This document shows positions 8,427-14,995 of a DNA stretch of 64,000 nt, in pieces. Origin of the DNA: a methanogenic archaeon ISO4-H5 (GTDB lineage Archaea; Thermoplasmatota; Thermoplasmata; Methanomassiliicoccales; Methanomethylophilaceae); NCBI GenBank assembly GCA_001560915.1, contig CP014214.1, positions 992,001 through 1,056,000 on the forward strand, read 5' to 3'. The stretch's first letter is position 1, and every line of letters begins with the position of its first letter. The notes beneath the pieces were generated by a model that searched no databases, was not told the origin of the DNA, and saw only the letters and a program-made list of their open reading frames with translations. A program made the translations under genes and the position numbers.

Positions 8427-9827
8427 TCAGAGTCCGTAGTTCTTCAGGTTGTAGTTGGGGACATTTCCGTCGAATTCCTTGTGGCAGTATTCGACGAATT
8501 TGTCGGTCTCGGTAGGCAGTGCCTCGATCTTCTTCTGGCAGTCGTCAAGAGTCTCTTTCTGCTTAACGGTAAGCTCGAGCTCCTTCTTGTCGAAACCGCG
8601 GTTGATGATCTCGATTGCTTTGAGTGCTGCTGCCCTGGACCTCTGGTAGTAGTCGTTACCCTCGGCAACGATTGCCTGTCCGATCTCGTAGGCGTTGTTG
8701 TATGCGAGGATGTATGCCTCAGGGGACCTTGCCATGTCGGTGATGCAGTACAGGTCACGGAGGGTCTTTGCCTGTCCGGTCTGGATGGCGGTGTTCATGA
8801 GGGCTGCCTCATATCCGAGGGATCCGAGCCAGCACTGGACGGAGGTTCCTCCGAACTCAGGGTGGTACTCGACGGACTCGTTGGACCAGCAGTCGCAGAT
8901 CTGAGCTGCGAGGTTACCCATCAGGTCGCAGTGTGCGCACTGGCAGTTCTTTCCCTCCTGGGTGGTGGGCTTTCCTGCGATGGCTTTGCAGATGATTCCC
9001 TCGTAACCGCAGTCCTTGTCAGGTCCCTGTGCGCCGCACTCCCATGCGACGACGGTCCTGGCGGCGGAGATTGCCCTGGTGATGGCGGCGAAGGTCTTCT
9101 GGACATCGAGATCCATGAGTCCTCCGGCCATGAACATGGCGACGTTAGCTCCGGAACAGTCGGTGTCTCCTCCGGGAACGGTCCTGTTCCTCTTGGCGAC
9201 GTCGACCATCTCATTCCAGATGTACTCCATGTCGATGGAACCGAGGTAACCTACTCCGTAAAGGAAGGCGACGATGTCTCCCTGGGTGACGGCGTAGTCG
9301 GCGAACTCTTTTCCTCCGACGGACTCGACGGAGAGGTTGTCTGCTCCGTTCTCACAGGCGATATCGCAGCACTGGAAGAACTTCTCGGGATAACTGTGGA
9401 CAGAGTCCATTCCGGGGCGGAGACCCATATCGTGCTCACGCTGGTCGGGAATGGTCTGCCTTACACCGCAGGCGATTCCGTATTCCTCGTGGAATTTCTC
9501 GCAAACAGCTTTCTGACCGGCTACGACAGGTGCGGAGAGCCTCTCCTGGTTCATCTGGGAGACCCACTCGGTCTCGAGGTGGACTGCGGGGAAACCTGCA
9601 GCGATACACCTGTTCATGATGTCGGTGGAGATGTAGTCGACGTACTCCTTTCTGAGCCTCTCGGGATCCTTCTCGGTTCCGGGCCTGGGAGCGTAGTTGA
9701 TCTCAGGGATGACCTGTCCTGCTCCGATCTTGAGGTCAAAACCCTCGGAAACGGGGTGGATAGCGGTTCCCATGACCATGTCATCCGCAGATTTGTATGC
9801 CATTCCGGTGTATTTGATAGAAGTCAT
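8427..9827 (-). CDS. mtaB: Methanol:corrinoid methyltransferase MtaB, copy 1
   Basis: MtaB transfers the methyl group of methanol to the cobalt of MtaC, the first step of methanogenesis from methanol. 466 residues, close to the family length of about 460. By comparison with the Methanosarcina enzyme, the Zn ligands correspond to Glu168 (NLSVESVGG), Cys224 (GGDTDCSGAN) and Cys273 (GPDKDCGYEG). The ATG at 9827 is preceded by GGAGGC and lies 2 nt after the mtaC stop, so translation is coupled. I reject the upstream in-frame extension, which would lie inside mtaC. A second, nearly identical mtaCB lies just upstream on the same strand. The partner MtaA is not in the window. Confidence 0.97.
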   Translation of the reverse strand: MTSIKYTGMAYKSADDMVMGTAIHPVSEGFDLKIGAGQVIPEINYAPRPGTEKDPERLRKEYVDYISTDIMNRCIAAGFPAVHLETEWVSQMNQERLSAPVVAGQKAVCEKFHEEYGIACGVRQTIPDQREHDMGLRPGMDSVHSYPEKFFQCCDIACENGADNLSVESVGGKEFADYAVTQGDIVAFLYGVGYLGSIDMEYIWNEMVDVAKRNRTVPGGDTDCSGANVAMFMAGGLMDLDVQKTFAAITRAISAARTVVAWECGAQGPDKDCGYEGIICKAIAGKPTTQEGKNCQCAHCDLMGNLAAQICDCWSNESVEYHPEFGGTSVQCWLGSLGYEAALMNTAIQTGQAKTLRDLYCITDMARSPEAYILAYNNAYEIGQAIVAEGNDYYQRSRAAALKAIEIINRGFDKKELELTVKQKETLDDCQKKIEALPTETDKFVEYCHKEFDGNVPNYNLKNYGL

Positions 9828-9829
9828 GT

Positions 9830-10612
9830 TCAAGCGCCTCCTACGATGTTGTCCCATTCTTCGTTAATCTTCTTCCAGTCGTATCCGTCAAGGAGCTTCT
9901 GTGCGATGAGTGCGGTCTGGTTGGCCTTGGCGGAATAGATTCCGAGGTCGTAGGAAGTTGCGTACTCCCTGTTGACTGCTCCTCCGCATCCCATGAGGGG
10001 GATGTCGATGTGCTTCTCTTTGAGAAGAGCGGCCTCTGCGGGAAAAGCGGACATGGTGGTGGTCATAAGTGCGGTTCCGGAGAAGAAGAGGGGTTTGACC
10101 TCTTCGACCTTGGCGATGACAGAGGTGACGGGGACGTCACGGCCCATGTCGATGACATTGTAGCCTGCTGCCTTCATCATAGCGGCTGCGATGTTCTTTC
10201 CGATGTCGTGGGGGTCTCCCTCGGCTGCGTGCATGACGACAGTGGCTTTGGTCTCGCGGGATCCGCCCATCTTGGCCTCTGCCATCTTGATTCCCATTTC
10301 CATGACCTTTGCGGCGACCATCATGTCGGGGAGGTAGTAGACGTGGTCATTGTAAAGGACACCGACAGCGTCGATTCCGGGAACGAGACCTTCGTTGATG
10401 ACCTCATCAGGCTTGTATTTGGCCATTGCCGCCTGCATGGCGGGCATGATTTCTTTGAGTTTCTTGAAAAGAACTGCCTCGGCGACTGCCTTCATGAGGG
10501 GGTCTTTGGGCATCATCTTCTCTGCTGCCTGCTCAGGAGTCTCTACGACCTGTTTCTTCACATCGTAACGTGTGAGGATCTTCGAGAAATCCGCTTTGCT
10601 GTAGTCAATCAT
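9830..10612 (-). CDS. mtaC: Methanol corrinoid protein MtaC, copy 1
   Basis: Carries the corrinoid methylated by MtaB and demethylated by MtaA. 260 residues. An N-terminal helical bundle (residues about 1-90) is followed by a Rossmann-like B12 domain with the lower-ligand motif GDPHDIGKN; His135 matches the cobalt-ligating His of the family. The start ATG at 10612 follows AGGAG and replaces a longer frame that would run through the promoter. At residue 70 this copy has Glu (GAG), exactly where copy 2 has TAG. A leader hairpin (10625-10636) and a 16-nt box shared with nrdJ lie upstream. Confidence 0.97.
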   Translation of the reverse strand: MIDYSKADFSKILTRYDVKKQVVETPEQAAEKMMPKDPLMKAVAEAVLFKKLKEIMPAMQAAMAKYKPDEVINEGLVPGIDAVGVLYNDHVYYLPDMMVAAKVMEMGIKMAEAKMGGSRETKATVVMHAAEGDPHDIGKNIAAAMMKAAGYNVIDMGRDVPVTSVIAKVEEVKPLFFSGTALMTTTMSAFPAEAALLKEKHIDIPLMGCGGAVNREYATSYDLGIYSAKANQTALIAQKLLDGYDWKKINEEWDNIVGGA

Positions 10613-10624
10613 GTGTTGTCTCCT

Positions 10625-10636
10625 CGGGAAAACCCG
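10625..10636 (-). promoter_or_regulatory. Leader hairpin before mtaC copy 1
   Basis: CGGG-TTTT-CCCG immediately upstream of the AGGAG ribosome-binding site of mtaC1. The same element, with a different loop, sits at the same place before mtaC copy 2, so it is likely part of the mRNA leader. Confidence 0.5.
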
Positions 10637-10702
10637 TTGAACGGCACACAAAAGTGTTTTATTTAATCTTAACGCATGTTTAATCAGGATTGGATTATTA
10701 AG

Positions 10703-10718
10703 TCCAACTGTCGATATC
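10703..10718 (-). promoter_or_regulatory. 16-nt box shared with nrdJ promoter
   Basis: On the minus strand this reads GATATCGACAGTTGGA, followed at once by CTTAATAA (TATA-like), 90 nt upstream of the mtaC1 start. The identical 16-mer, in the same orientation and followed by TGTATACG, lies 100 nt upstream of nrdJ. Function unknown. Confidence 0.5.
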
Positions 10719-10786
10719 ATTAAGCTTCACAGAAATCGGGCAAAAGCTGCGTTCGCCACAATATTAATAAATAAGAGTTTGGGAAA

Positions 10787-10804
10787 CCCCCGCCAGAGCG
10801 GGGG
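10787..10804 (-). terminator. Terminator of mtaB copy 2
   Basis: CCCCCGC/GCGGGGG stem with a 4-nt loop, 29 nt after the mtaB2 stop and followed on the minus strand by a T-rich stretch. It separates the two mtaCB operons. Confidence 0.7.
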
Positions 10805-10832
10805 CTGAACCCGTTTTTTAAGGTTTTAACAC

Positions 10833-12233
10833 TCAGAGTCCGTAGTTCTTGAGGTTGTAGTTGGGGACTACTCCTGCGAACTCCTTGTCGCAGTACTCAA
10901 GGAACTTGTCGGTCTCGGTAGGCAGTGCCTCGATCTTCTTCTGGCAGTCGTCGAGGGTCTCCTTCTGCTTAACGGTCAGCTGGAGTTCCTTCTTGTCGAA
11001 ACCGCGGTTGACGATCTCAATTGCCTTCAGAGCTGCGGCGCGTGCCCTCTGGTAGTAGTCGTTACCCTCGGCAACGATCGCCTGTCCGATCTCGTAGGCG
11101 TTGTTGTATGCGAGGATGTAGGACTCGGGGGACCTGGTCATGTCGGTGATACAGTACAGGTCACGGAGGGTCTTCGCATTGCCGGTCTGGATAGCGGTGT
11201 TCATGAGAGCGGTCTCGTATCCCAGCGGGCCGAGCCAGCACTGGACGGAGGTTCCTCCGAACTCAGGGTGGTACTCGACGGACTCGTTGGACCAGCAGTC
11301 GCAGATCTGTGCGGTCAGGTTACCCATCAGGTCGCAGTGTGCGCACTGGCAGTTCTTTCCCTCCTGGGTGGTGGGCTTTCCTGCGATGGATTTGCAGATG
11401 ATTCCCTCGTAACCGCAGTCCTTGTCGGGACCCTGCGCACCGCACTCCCATGCGACGACAGTCCTTGCTGCAGAAATGGCACGGGTAACCGCGGAGAAGG
11501 TCTTCTGGACATCGAGATCCATGAGACCTCCGGCCATGAACATGGCGACGTTTGCTCCGGAACAGTTGGTGTCTCCTCCGGGAACGGTCCTGTTCCTCTT
11601 GGCGACGTCGACCATCTCACTCCAGATGTATTCCATATCCACCGATCCGAGATATCCGACACCATACAGGAATGCGACGATGTCTCCCTGGGTGACAGCG
11701 TAGTCGGCGAACTCTTTTCCGCCGACGGACTCGACGGAAAGGTTGTCTGCTCCGTTCTCACAGGCGATATCGCAGCACTGGAAGAACTTCTCGGGGTAGC
11801 TGTGGACAGTGTCCATTCCGGGCCTGAGACCCATATCGTGCTCACGCTGGTCGGGGATGGTCTGCCTGACACCGCAGGCGATTCCATACTCATCGTGGAA
11901 TTTCTCACATACCGCTTTCTGTCCTGCGACAACGGGAGCGGACAGTTTCTCCTGGTTCATCTGGGAGACCCACTCGGTCTCGAGGTGGACGGCTGGGAAT
12001 CCTGCGGTAACACACCTGTTCATGATGTCGGTGGAGATGTAGTCCACGTATTCTCTCCTGAGTTTCTCAGGGTCTTTCTCGGTTCCGGGCCTGGGAGCAT
12101 AGTTGATCTCAGGGATAACCTGTCCTGCTCCGATCTTCAATCCGAATCCCTCGGATACGGGGTGGATGGCGGTTCCCATGACCATGTCATCCGCAGATTT
12201 GTATGCCATTCCGGTGTATTTTACAGAAGTCAT
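10833..12233 (-). CDS. mtaB: Methanol:corrinoid methyltransferase MtaB, copy 2
   Basis: 466 residues and nearly identical to copy 1, with scattered conservative changes (for example CHKEFDGNVPN in copy 1 against CDKEFAGVVPN here, near the C-terminus). The Zn ligand motifs VESVGG, GGDTNCSGAN and GPDKDCGYEG are all kept, so the enzyme should be active. The ATG at 12233 is preceded by GGAGG within the end of mtaC2. Separate leader and terminator elements show that each mtaCB pair is its own transcription unit. Duplicate mta operons are common in methanogens and are often differentially expressed; whether that holds here is unknown. Confidence 0.97.
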   Translation of the reverse strand: MTSVKYTGMAYKSADDMVMGTAIHPVSEGFGLKIGAGQVIPEINYAPRPGTEKDPEKLRREYVDYISTDIMNRCVTAGFPAVHLETEWVSQMNQEKLSAPVVAGQKAVCEKFHDEYGIACGVRQTIPDQREHDMGLRPGMDTVHSYPEKFFQCCDIACENGADNLSVESVGGKEFADYAVTQGDIVAFLYGVGYLGSVDMEYIWSEMVDVAKRNRTVPGGDTNCSGANVAMFMAGGLMDLDVQKTFSAVTRAISAARTVVAWECGAQGPDKDCGYEGIICKSIAGKPTTQEGKNCQCAHCDLMGNLTAQICDCWSNESVEYHPEFGGTSVQCWLGPLGYETALMNTAIQTGNAKTLRDLYCITDMTRSPESYILAYNNAYEIGQAIVAEGNDYYQRARAAALKAIEIVNRGFDKKELQLTVKQKETLDDCQKKIEALPTETDKFLEYCDKEFAGVVPNYNLKNYGL

Positions 12234-12235
12234 GT

Positions 12236-13018
12236 TCAAGCACCTCCTACGATGTTGTCCCATTCCTCATTGATCTTCTTCCAGTCGTAACCGTCGATGA
12301 TCTTCTGAGCGATGAGGGCGGTCTGATTGGCTTTTGCCGAATAGATTCCGAGGTCGTAGGAAGTTGCATACTCCCTGTTGACGGCTCCTCCGCATCCCAT
12401 GAGGGGGATGTTGAGTTTCTTCTCTTTGAGAAGGGCTGCTTCCGCGGGGAAGGCTGACATGGTGGTAGTCATGAGAGCGGTTCCGGAGAAGAAGAGGGGT
12501 TTCACCTTCTCGACTTCAGCAATCACGGTGGTAACGGGTACATCACGGCCCAAGTCGATGACATTGTAGCCTGCTGCCTTCATCATAGCGGCTGCGATGT
12601 TCTTTCCGATGTCGTGGGGATCTCCCTCGGCGGCATGCATGATGACGGTGGCTTTGGTCTCACGTGATCCTCCCATCTGCTTCTCGGCCATCTTGATTCC
12701 GATCTCCATGACCTTGGCTGCAACCATCATGTCAGGAAGATAGTAGATGTGGTCGTTGTAAAGGACACCGACTGCGTCGATACCGGGAACGAGTCCGCCG
12801 TTGATTACCTAGTCGGGCTTGTACTTGGCCATCGCAGCCTGCATTGCGGGCATGATGTCCTTCAGCTTCTTGTAGAGGACACACTCGGCGACTGCCTTCA
12901 TGAGGGGGTCGCTGGGCATCATCTTAGCTGCTACCTGTTCGGGTGTCTCGACGACCTGTTTTTTCACGTCGTAACGTGTGAGGATCTTCGAGAAATCCAC
13001 TTTGCTGTAGTCAATCAT
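12236..13018 (-). CDS. mtaC: Methanol corrinoid protein MtaC, copy 2, with in-frame UAG
   Basis: Same 783-nt length as copy 1 and collinear with it, but codon 70 is TAG (12811-12809): KYKPD-TAG-VINGGLVPG here against KYKPD-E-VINEGLVPG in copy 1. A single G to T change turns GAG into TAG. Everything after it is intact, including the corrinoid His motif GDPHDIGKN, and no further stop or frameshift is present. GGAGGAA precedes the ATG at 13018. Two readings are possible: the UAG is decoded (as pyrrolysine in a Pyl-using archaeon) and a full-length protein is made, or the gene is a very recent pseudogene. The intact downstream frame and functional mtaB2 favour the first. Known Pyl proteins of methanogens are the methylamine methyltransferases, not MtaC. 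Confidence 0.85.
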
Positions 13019-13030
13019 TGTATTTCCTCC

Positions 13031-13044
13031 ACGGGTTTCCCCGT
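13031..13044 (-). promoter_or_regulatory. Leader hairpin before mtaC copy 2
   Basis: On the minus strand ACGGG-GAAA-CCCGT, a GNRA-loop hairpin directly 5' of the GGAGG ribosome-binding site. It is the counterpart of the hairpin before mtaC copy 1. The rest of the 360-nt gap to ramA (13045-13378) is AT-rich promoter sequence; on the minus strand a TATA-like CATTTAAATAC lies near 13070. Confidence 0.5.
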
Positions 13045-13378
13045 TGCGGAAAAATGAAAATGTGTGTATTTAAATGATTATACAAACAAACGGTTTTATT
13101 GATTTAATCATTAAACAACGTTTAATTTTTGATACAATTGTCTAATGGAATATCATAATTCTGTACAATTAATAAATTGACGTATACTTCCAACAAAGAT
13201 TTCCCAAAACCATACTTTAACTACTTTTGTACGAAAATATGAAGTCCAGACGTCAAAATGTATGGAAAATACAAAGTCTCCGGAGGGACATACTTAACGG
13301 ATATTGACAATCAATGAATCCATTCGTGGGAAGGTTTTATTTGATTGCATTCTTACAATTGAGTATAAGAGGATGCCC

Positions 13379-14995
13379 ATGACTGCATACGGAATCGCAC
13401 TCGATATTGGAACCAGCGGAACACGTGCACATGCTGTGGATCTCAGCAGCGGAAAGATCCTTTCGACGGCAGTTACCGACTGCCACCCCCTTCCCGGGGC
13501 CAATGTGATGGATCATCTCACATTCTGTATCAATGTGGGGAACGACATAGCCCACCGCATTCTGATGGACACAGTAAACAAAGTAATCAGGAATCTGGGG
13601 ATCGATCTGAAACAGGTCGAGAGGGTAAGCATCTGCGGAAACCCCATTCAGCTTTCTCTCTTCCAGGGCATTCCCGTGGACGACCTAGCTTTCGCCGGAG
13701 ACAACGCCAAGAGGGAGAAAGGAATCGTCGACCACGCCAGGAACGCAGGGGTCTTCTCCGCCGTCGATGTCGGCATGGACCTGCCTGACGGGACTGAGCT
13801 TCTGGTGCCTCCTGCCATCAGACACGAGATCGGTGCCGATGCTCTTGCGATGATGTACAAATCGGGATTCCTCGAGGACAAGAGGAACTGCATGGTCACC
13901 GATTACGGTACCAATGCCGAGATGGCACTCAAGGTGGGTGATGAGATCTACACCGGTTCTGCCGCCGCAGGTCCCGCCATGGAGGGTCAGTCCATCAGAT
14001 GCGGAATGCTCGCCTCGCCCGGCGCCATTTCCGATTTAGAGTATGATTTCGGTTGGATCTGCAAGGTCCTCGACGATGACATCTCCCCTCAGAACGGAGA
14101 CAAGATCGACTTCAAACTCAACATGACAACCGACACCGGACCCATGCACGGAAAGGCCATGGGAATCACCGGAACCGGAGTCGTAGCAGCCGTAGCCGTG
14201 GCTCAATACGACCACCTCTGGCACAAGGGAAAACTCACCACCGCCGACGGCCTCATGAAACTCCAGGACGGCATCAGTATCGACAGCCACGACATCTCCG
14301 AGGCAGCCAAAGCGATCGGGGCCATGAGGGCAGGTCACTTCTGCCTGCTGGAACATGCGGGAATCAAGTTCAGCGAGATGAACGTTATGTACATGTGCGG
14401 TGCCTCCGGAACCTATGTGGATGCCATGAAGGCCCGCGACGTGGGACTCATCCCGCCCTCCTCCACGGAGATATATCAGTACGGAAACACCTCGCTCGCC
14501 ATGGCCACCGACATCCTGAAGAATCCCGAGCTCCTCGATACCCTGCAGGACATCGCCAACAGCATCCGTGCCAATCACATCATGTTCGCCAAGGACCCGG
14601 TCTTCTCGCAGATCTATCTGCAGGAGCTAGGATTCTGGGACGAGGGCATGTCGCTTGAGGAGTACAACGCCAACAATGCCGCCGAAGGAATCCAGGAGCT
14701 CCCCAAGCCCCGCGGCCGTGCCAATGTGCACCGTGTGGTCACCAGGGATATCCAGGACCTCGGAGAGAGGGGTCTGACCATCGTCCACGACATCGGTACC
14801 GAACTCGTCGGTAAGATGGAAGGCTGCACCGGCTGCGGAAAATGCGTGAAGGAATGCCCTGAGCACACCCTTTCGATCTCTGACGACAAGACGATCACCG
14901 TCAAGACCAAGAACTGCCTCGGCACCGCCTGCTACAGATGCCAGATGAGCTGCCCCAGCAAAGTGTACAAGTACGCAGACCTGAAACTCGTCTGA
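13379..14995 (+). CDS. ramA: Corrinoid protein reductive activase (RamA/RACo-like)
   Basis: Reduces inactive Co(II) corrinoid proteins to Co(I) with ATP, keeping MtaC active. 538 residues. The N-terminal ASKHA-type fold starts IALDIGTSGTRAHAVDL and has the later phosphate motif VTDYGTNAEMAL. The C-terminus holds two [4Fe-4S] sites, CTGCGKCVKECPEH and CLGTACYRCQMSCPS. This matches methanogen RamA; bacterial RACo has an N-terminal 2Fe-2S domain instead. I chose the ATG at 13379 because AAGAGG lies 6 nt upstream of it and directly abuts the ATG at 13373. It is divergent from mtaC2, so it serves the mta operons. Confidence 0.92.
   Translation: MTAYGIALDIGTSGTRAHAVDLSSGKILSTAVTDCHPLPGANVMDHLTFCINVGNDIAHRILMDTVNKVIRNLGIDLKQVERVSICGNPIQLSLFQGIPVDDLAFAGDNAKREKGIVDHARNAGVFSAVDVGMDLPDGTELLVPPAIRHEIGADALAMMYKSGFLEDKRNCMVTDYGTNAEMALKVGDEIYTGSAAAGPAMEGQSIRCGMLASPGAISDLEYDFGWICKVLDDDISPQNGDKIDFKLNMTTDTGPMHGKAMGITGTGVVAAVAVAQYDHLWHKGKLTTADGLMKLQDGISIDSHDISEAAKAIGAMRAGHFCLLEHAGIKFSEMNVMYMCGASGTYVDAMKARDVGLIPPSSTEIYQYGNTSLAMATDILKNPELLDTLQDIANSIRANHIMFAKDPVFSQIYLQELGFWDEGMSLEEYNANNAAEGIQELPKPRGRANVHRVVTRDIQDLGERGLTIVHDIGTELVGKMEGCTGCGKCVKECPEHTLSISDDKTITVKTKNCLGTACYRCQMSCPSKVYKYADLKLV

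Follow-up and report, generated by a model that had tools for sequence, protein, structure and literature searches.

Does the in-frame TAG in one of the two methanol corrinoid protein genes of the methanogenic archaeon ISO4-H5 silence that gene, or is it read as pyrrolysine (Pyl)? The affected copy, mtaC2, lies in the window analysed here, a stretch of 64,000 nucleotides, and is the first gene of a tandem array with an intact mtaB behind each mtaC (Table 1). We consider it quite probable that mtaC2 is live, that UAG 70 is read as Pyl to give full-length MtaC2, and that the codon is a recent, nearly neutral substitution in a redundant copy. PylS and tRNA-Pyl would decode UAG 70 to yield a protein of 260 residues. 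Read-through itself, near-neutrality and origin by mutation are, each on its own, what the sequence makes most likely.

Table 1. Features of the mtaCB array and its surroundings, with positions counted from the first letter of the window
Feature	Position	Strand	Remark
RamA-type corrinoid protein reductive activase, divergent to mtaC2	13379..14995	plus	TIGR04270 E=5e-214
mtaC2 leader: TTTAAATA box and GGAGG ribosome-binding site	13019..13075	minus	common to nearest species
mtaC2, methanol corrinoid protein gene, in-frame TAG at codon 70	12239..13018	minus	stop TGA at 12236-12238
TAG codon 70 of mtaC2	12809-12811	minus	GAG in mtaC1; ACG in nearest species' orthologue
mtaB2, intact methanol methyltransferase, MtaB family	10833..12233	minus	begins 2 nt after mtaC2 stop
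mtaB2-mtaC1 intergenic stretch: GC-rich hairpin, TATA-like ATTAAATAAAA, Shine-Dalgarno	10613..10829	minus	
mtaC1, intact paralogue, GAG at codon 70	9833..10612	minus	
mtaB1, intact	8427..9827	minus	

With the TAG read as a residue, the mtaC2 frame stays open for 260 codons from 13018 and ends in TGA (ORF 13018 to 12236), and its product matches the NCBIfam family MtaC2_Meth with E=1.3e-78, a match that stays below the 450-bit equivalog cut-off, as does that of the intact mtaC1. Sequence and structure matches, the adjacent mtaB and a whole corrinoid motif (GDPHDIGK at residues 132-139, conforming to GDxHDIGK and invariant in 26 sequences) identify the gene as an mtaC. The TAG is accompanied by no second lesion of the kind expected in a pseudogene, and homologous coding sequence continues 3' of the UAG, as it does in genes for Pyl proteins. 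An earlier note on this DNA had located the TAG in mtaC2 and described an intact His motif, a strong ribosome-binding site and a complete mtaB partner; these observations are confirmed, the TAG being codon 70 of an otherwise intact frame, with GGAGG before the ATG and mtaB2 full. The note's statement that mtaC2 differs from mtaC1 by a change of GAG to TAG holds for codon 70, and the genes are collinear, but the copies are not near-identical: judging by 91% protein identity, ~13% differing nucleotides and a dS of about 0.66, they are old duplicates. Within the window there is no Rfam match and no tRNA, and a scan of viral contigs returned no relatives of MtaC2.

The host genome, a single contig of 1,937,883 bp, holds in one cluster (locus L013) the tRNA-Pyl gene pylT with a CUA anticodon and the genes pylS, pylB, pylC and pylD, the complete set for which the earlier note had advised a search. 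Each of the last four exceeds its family cut-off, pylS with 275 bits; the tRNA-Pyl was missed by ARAGORN and was located via its anticodon-loop sequence. PylSn is absent from the genome, which is normal for Methanomassiliicoccales, and because this absence is expected in the order, we do not take it as absence of the Pyl system. The PylRS/tRNA-Pyl pair of ISO4-H5 is among five tested in E. coli, and such pairs are called active in the heading of a review (PMC11467909).

The use of TAG was surveyed in a sample of 324 kb, or some 17% of the genome. Coding-like ORFs in this sample (n=231) end in TGA in 203 cases, in TAA in 24 and in TAG in 4; all four TAG-ended ORFs run on in frame into a coding-like extension, and no true TAG terminator is found among the sample's approximately 227 coding-like genes. 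All five coding-frame TAGs are internal and belong to mtaC2, three genes of L013 and one of L116. In this sample TAG acts as a sense codon. Two of the L013 genes are mtmB-like, with the context GRPG-[LM]-G-[VI]-Pyl-GPETPL at codons 202-203, and the third is mtbB-like, with TAG at codon 355, the names of the non-pyl genes in L013 and L116 coming from a reading of the sequence and not from a family search. The L116 gene (L116:13676-14779 (-)) is geranylgeranyl-reductase-like and carries its in-frame TAG at codon 296; the geranylgeranyl reductase class also appears among the amber genes of the ISO4-H5 genome paper (PMC5011839). A control scan for internal TAA and TGA is weak, since pylS-pylB of L013, which are two neighbouring genes in one frame, were the only apparent read-through case that was identified. 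A TGA within one corrinoid match (L006) turned out to be the end of an upstream gene. With a full pyl cassette in a genome where TAG is hardly used as a stop, the UAG of mtaC2 is likely read through as Pyl. Reading of every TAG codon as Pyl has reportedly been described in archaea of late.

Residue 70 varies across 49 distinct homologues, being D in 32, E in 6, Q in 4, V in 4, T in 1, A in 1 and a stop in 1. An AlphaFold model of the read-through MtaC2 (mean pLDDT 83) finds its best match in MtaC of M. barkeri (2i2x_B, 40% identity, TM 0.8) and shows residue 70 as the third residue of helix 68-88; Pyl would sit in the first turn of this helix, which belongs to the N-terminal helical domain. 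In sequence, the site and the corrinoid motif are far apart, and Pyl probably has no catalytic role there.

A search for mtaC in 147 genomes of the order gave matches in 97 genomes, and among the 148 matches listed three contain an internal stop, each at a different codon: TAG at 70 (mtaC2), TAA at 85 and TAG at 112. Single nonsense codons thus affect ~2% of mtaC matches and are not all TAG. The earlier note had proposed to look for homologues with TAG at the same site; no relative examined has one, and among the genomes examined the mtaC2 TAG is private to ISO4-H5. The mtaC2 orthologue of the nearest species (MAG RUG13270, G008) is 95% identical, is placed as orthologue with a tree support of 0.97, adjoins the same kind of activase gene as mtaC2 and has ACG (Thr) at codon 70, so that the TAG most simply arose after that split. 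Absence of the TAG in all related strains, which the note had named as grounds for giving up its idea, is therefore a fact at the species level; it argues against a conserved role, not against decoding. Conservation of the UAG, as found for functional Pyl in MtmB, MtbB and MttB, is lacking at codon 70 of mtaC2. Beyond its mtaB, the nearest species (L079:5202-6631 (-)) carries a His-rich metal-binding-like gene and a CobW/HypB-like GTPase gene, both convergent with mtaB.

The mtaC of G060 (L043:5382-6158 (-), C1:591381-592157), with TAG at codon 112 and an intact mtaB, is the only mtaC found in that genome, which looks complete. A pylS above the family cut-off is present in 12 of 13 genomes tested and none was found in G060, whose TAG may mark a broken gene or an error, or may be suppressed in some other way. 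Since this relative has a TAG in mtaC and lacks pylS, Pyl does not follow from the mere presence of a TAG in mtaC, and genes of this kind that contain TAG in frame give, on that ground alone, no evidence of functional Pyl. In G006 (MAG RUG10898, L044:4929-5708 (+)), the mtaC with TAA at codon 85 has an intact mtaB after it; as the genome is a MAG, the TAA may stem from an error in the consensus. G005 (L046:4756-8130 (-)) resembles ISO4-H5 in having mtaCB in a tandem array, but its two mtaC cluster together and its two MtaB score equally, which suggests that the genes were recently duplicated, or underwent gene conversion, inside that species.

Selection on mtaC2 appears unrelaxed. Compared with the nearest species, its dN/dS is 0.05 over the whole gene and 3' of the TAG alike, and compared with mtaC1 it is 0.065 in the region 3' of the TAG; mtaB2 is constrained likewise, with a dN/dS of 0.049. 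When mtaC1 serves as outgroup, synonymous and nonsynonymous changes number 22/8 in the mtaC2 lineage versus 31/6 in the orthologue lineage for the whole gene (p=0.37), and 18/5 versus 20/5 for the part 3' of the TAG (Fisher p=1), lineage counts that give no sign of relaxed selection relative to the functional orthologue. These figures indicate strong purifying selection over most of the mtaC2 branch, a record that read-through and a very recent stop would leave in the same form.

Such a very young nonsense mutation, by which UAG 70 would mostly terminate, mtaC2 would be in the course of being lost and methanol use would fall to mtaC1-mtaB1, fits with the private TAG, with the redundant intact copy and with the nearest species, in which a single mtaCB pair was found. 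The TAA 85 of G006 and the TAG 112 of G060, the latter in a genome without pylS, likewise represent mtaC nonsense codons that Pyl does not explain. We nevertheless regard this as unlikely, because UAG is decoded in the methylamine genes and the sampled genes include no TAG terminators, so that at least partial read-through is to be expected; moreover, mtaC2 has gathered no further damage and its intact partner mtaB2 is still under constraint.

It is more doubtful still that selection favoured Pyl 70, be it for some function or as a switch by which MtaC2B2 output follows the supply of Pyl and hence of methylamines. The position of mtaC2 at the head of the array, with the mtaB2 start only 2 nt past its stop, means that termination at the UAG could lower mtaB2 translation too, and in one highly improbable form this idea would make UAG 70 a translational valve, so that the production of MtaC2 and of the mtaB2 product would scale with Pyl-tRNA supply; if true, methylamine metabolism would be coupled to one of the two methanol systems. 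The TAG is conserved in no relative, the site varies freely, and an unswitched mtaC1 stands alongside. The RNA structure after the UAG shows nothing distinctive (z = +0.81), and Pyl insertion does not need a downstream RNA element, according to a review (PMC9499178). The elements between mtaB2 and mtaC1 suggest that mtaC1 is expressed separately, and with TATA-like and ribosome-binding elements of its own in the mtaC1 leader, there is no need for methanol use to hinge on Pyl. The earlier note's link between methanol use and Pyl supply is hence not upheld, given the adjoining mtaC1-mtaB1 pair, the variable site and the unconserved TAG; a functional or regulatory Pyl in MtaC2 is not supported.

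Errors of 454 sequencing are mostly homopolymer indels. A wrong base, or a minor variant that rose to fixation in the enrichment culture, has hardly any probability: the genome was obtained by 454 sequencing of a mixed enrichment culture, yet it was closed at 43.8x combined coverage with 163 additional sequencing reactions, according to its description (PMC5011839), and no homopolymer run lies at the TAG site.

We thus return to UAG 70 as a recent, nearly neutral codon that is read as Pyl. It would have arisen by nonsense mutation in the lineage of the ISO4-H5 strain or species, and its tolerance would rest on the effective use of TAG as sense, on a site 70 that accepts many residues and on the presence of an intact mtaC1.

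The core of this claim is not new. Li et al. 2016 list mtaC AR505_0952 among 46 in-frame-amber genes of ISO4-H5 and conclude that pyrrolysine is present in MtaC1, their methanol corrinoid protein (PMC5011839), so that the earlier note's notion of a Pyl-containing corrinoid protein not previously described was anticipated. AR505_0952, an in-frame amber mtaC of a pyl-positive Methanomassiliicoccales archaeon, is very probably the mtaC2 of this study, since only one of the two mtaC copies has a TAG; it differs in being named MtaC1 there, and the accessible part of that paper offers no comparison of the site with relatives (PMC5011839). Added here are the private distribution of the TAG, the variability of site 70 and the selection on mtaC2.

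Pyl in MtmB, MtbB and MttB is conserved and taken as catalytic. MtaC2 resembles these proteins in that its UAG would be decoded by the same machinery, and such genes are present in L013, but it differs from them in that conservation of its Pyl is lacking and no catalytic place for it is evident. A further likeness may lie in the tRNA-His guanylyltransferase of Methanosarcina, a different protein, for which Heinemann et al. 2009 reportedly tested at the bench a Pyl that had arisen by neutral evolution. As a clean case from nature, mtaC2 would show how pyrrolysine can gather at tolerant, non-catalytic sites of a genome with TAG as sense, with ready controls in the intact paralogue of the same cell and the sense-codon orthologue of the nearest species. 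For 'Ca. Methanomethylophilus alvus', Borrel et al. 2014 proposed neutral uptake of amber codons and argued, for amber genes in this order, that an in-frame amber codon becomes a stable mutation where TAG rarely terminates (PMC4153887). The scattered non-methyltransferase amber genes of that organism share with mtaC2 a TAG that is missing from homologues elsewhere, a background of rare TAG terminators and mutations tolerated under constant suppression, and differ from it in kind, being mtxX, cas1 and similar genes, whereas mtaC2 encodes a corrinoid protein (PMC4153887).
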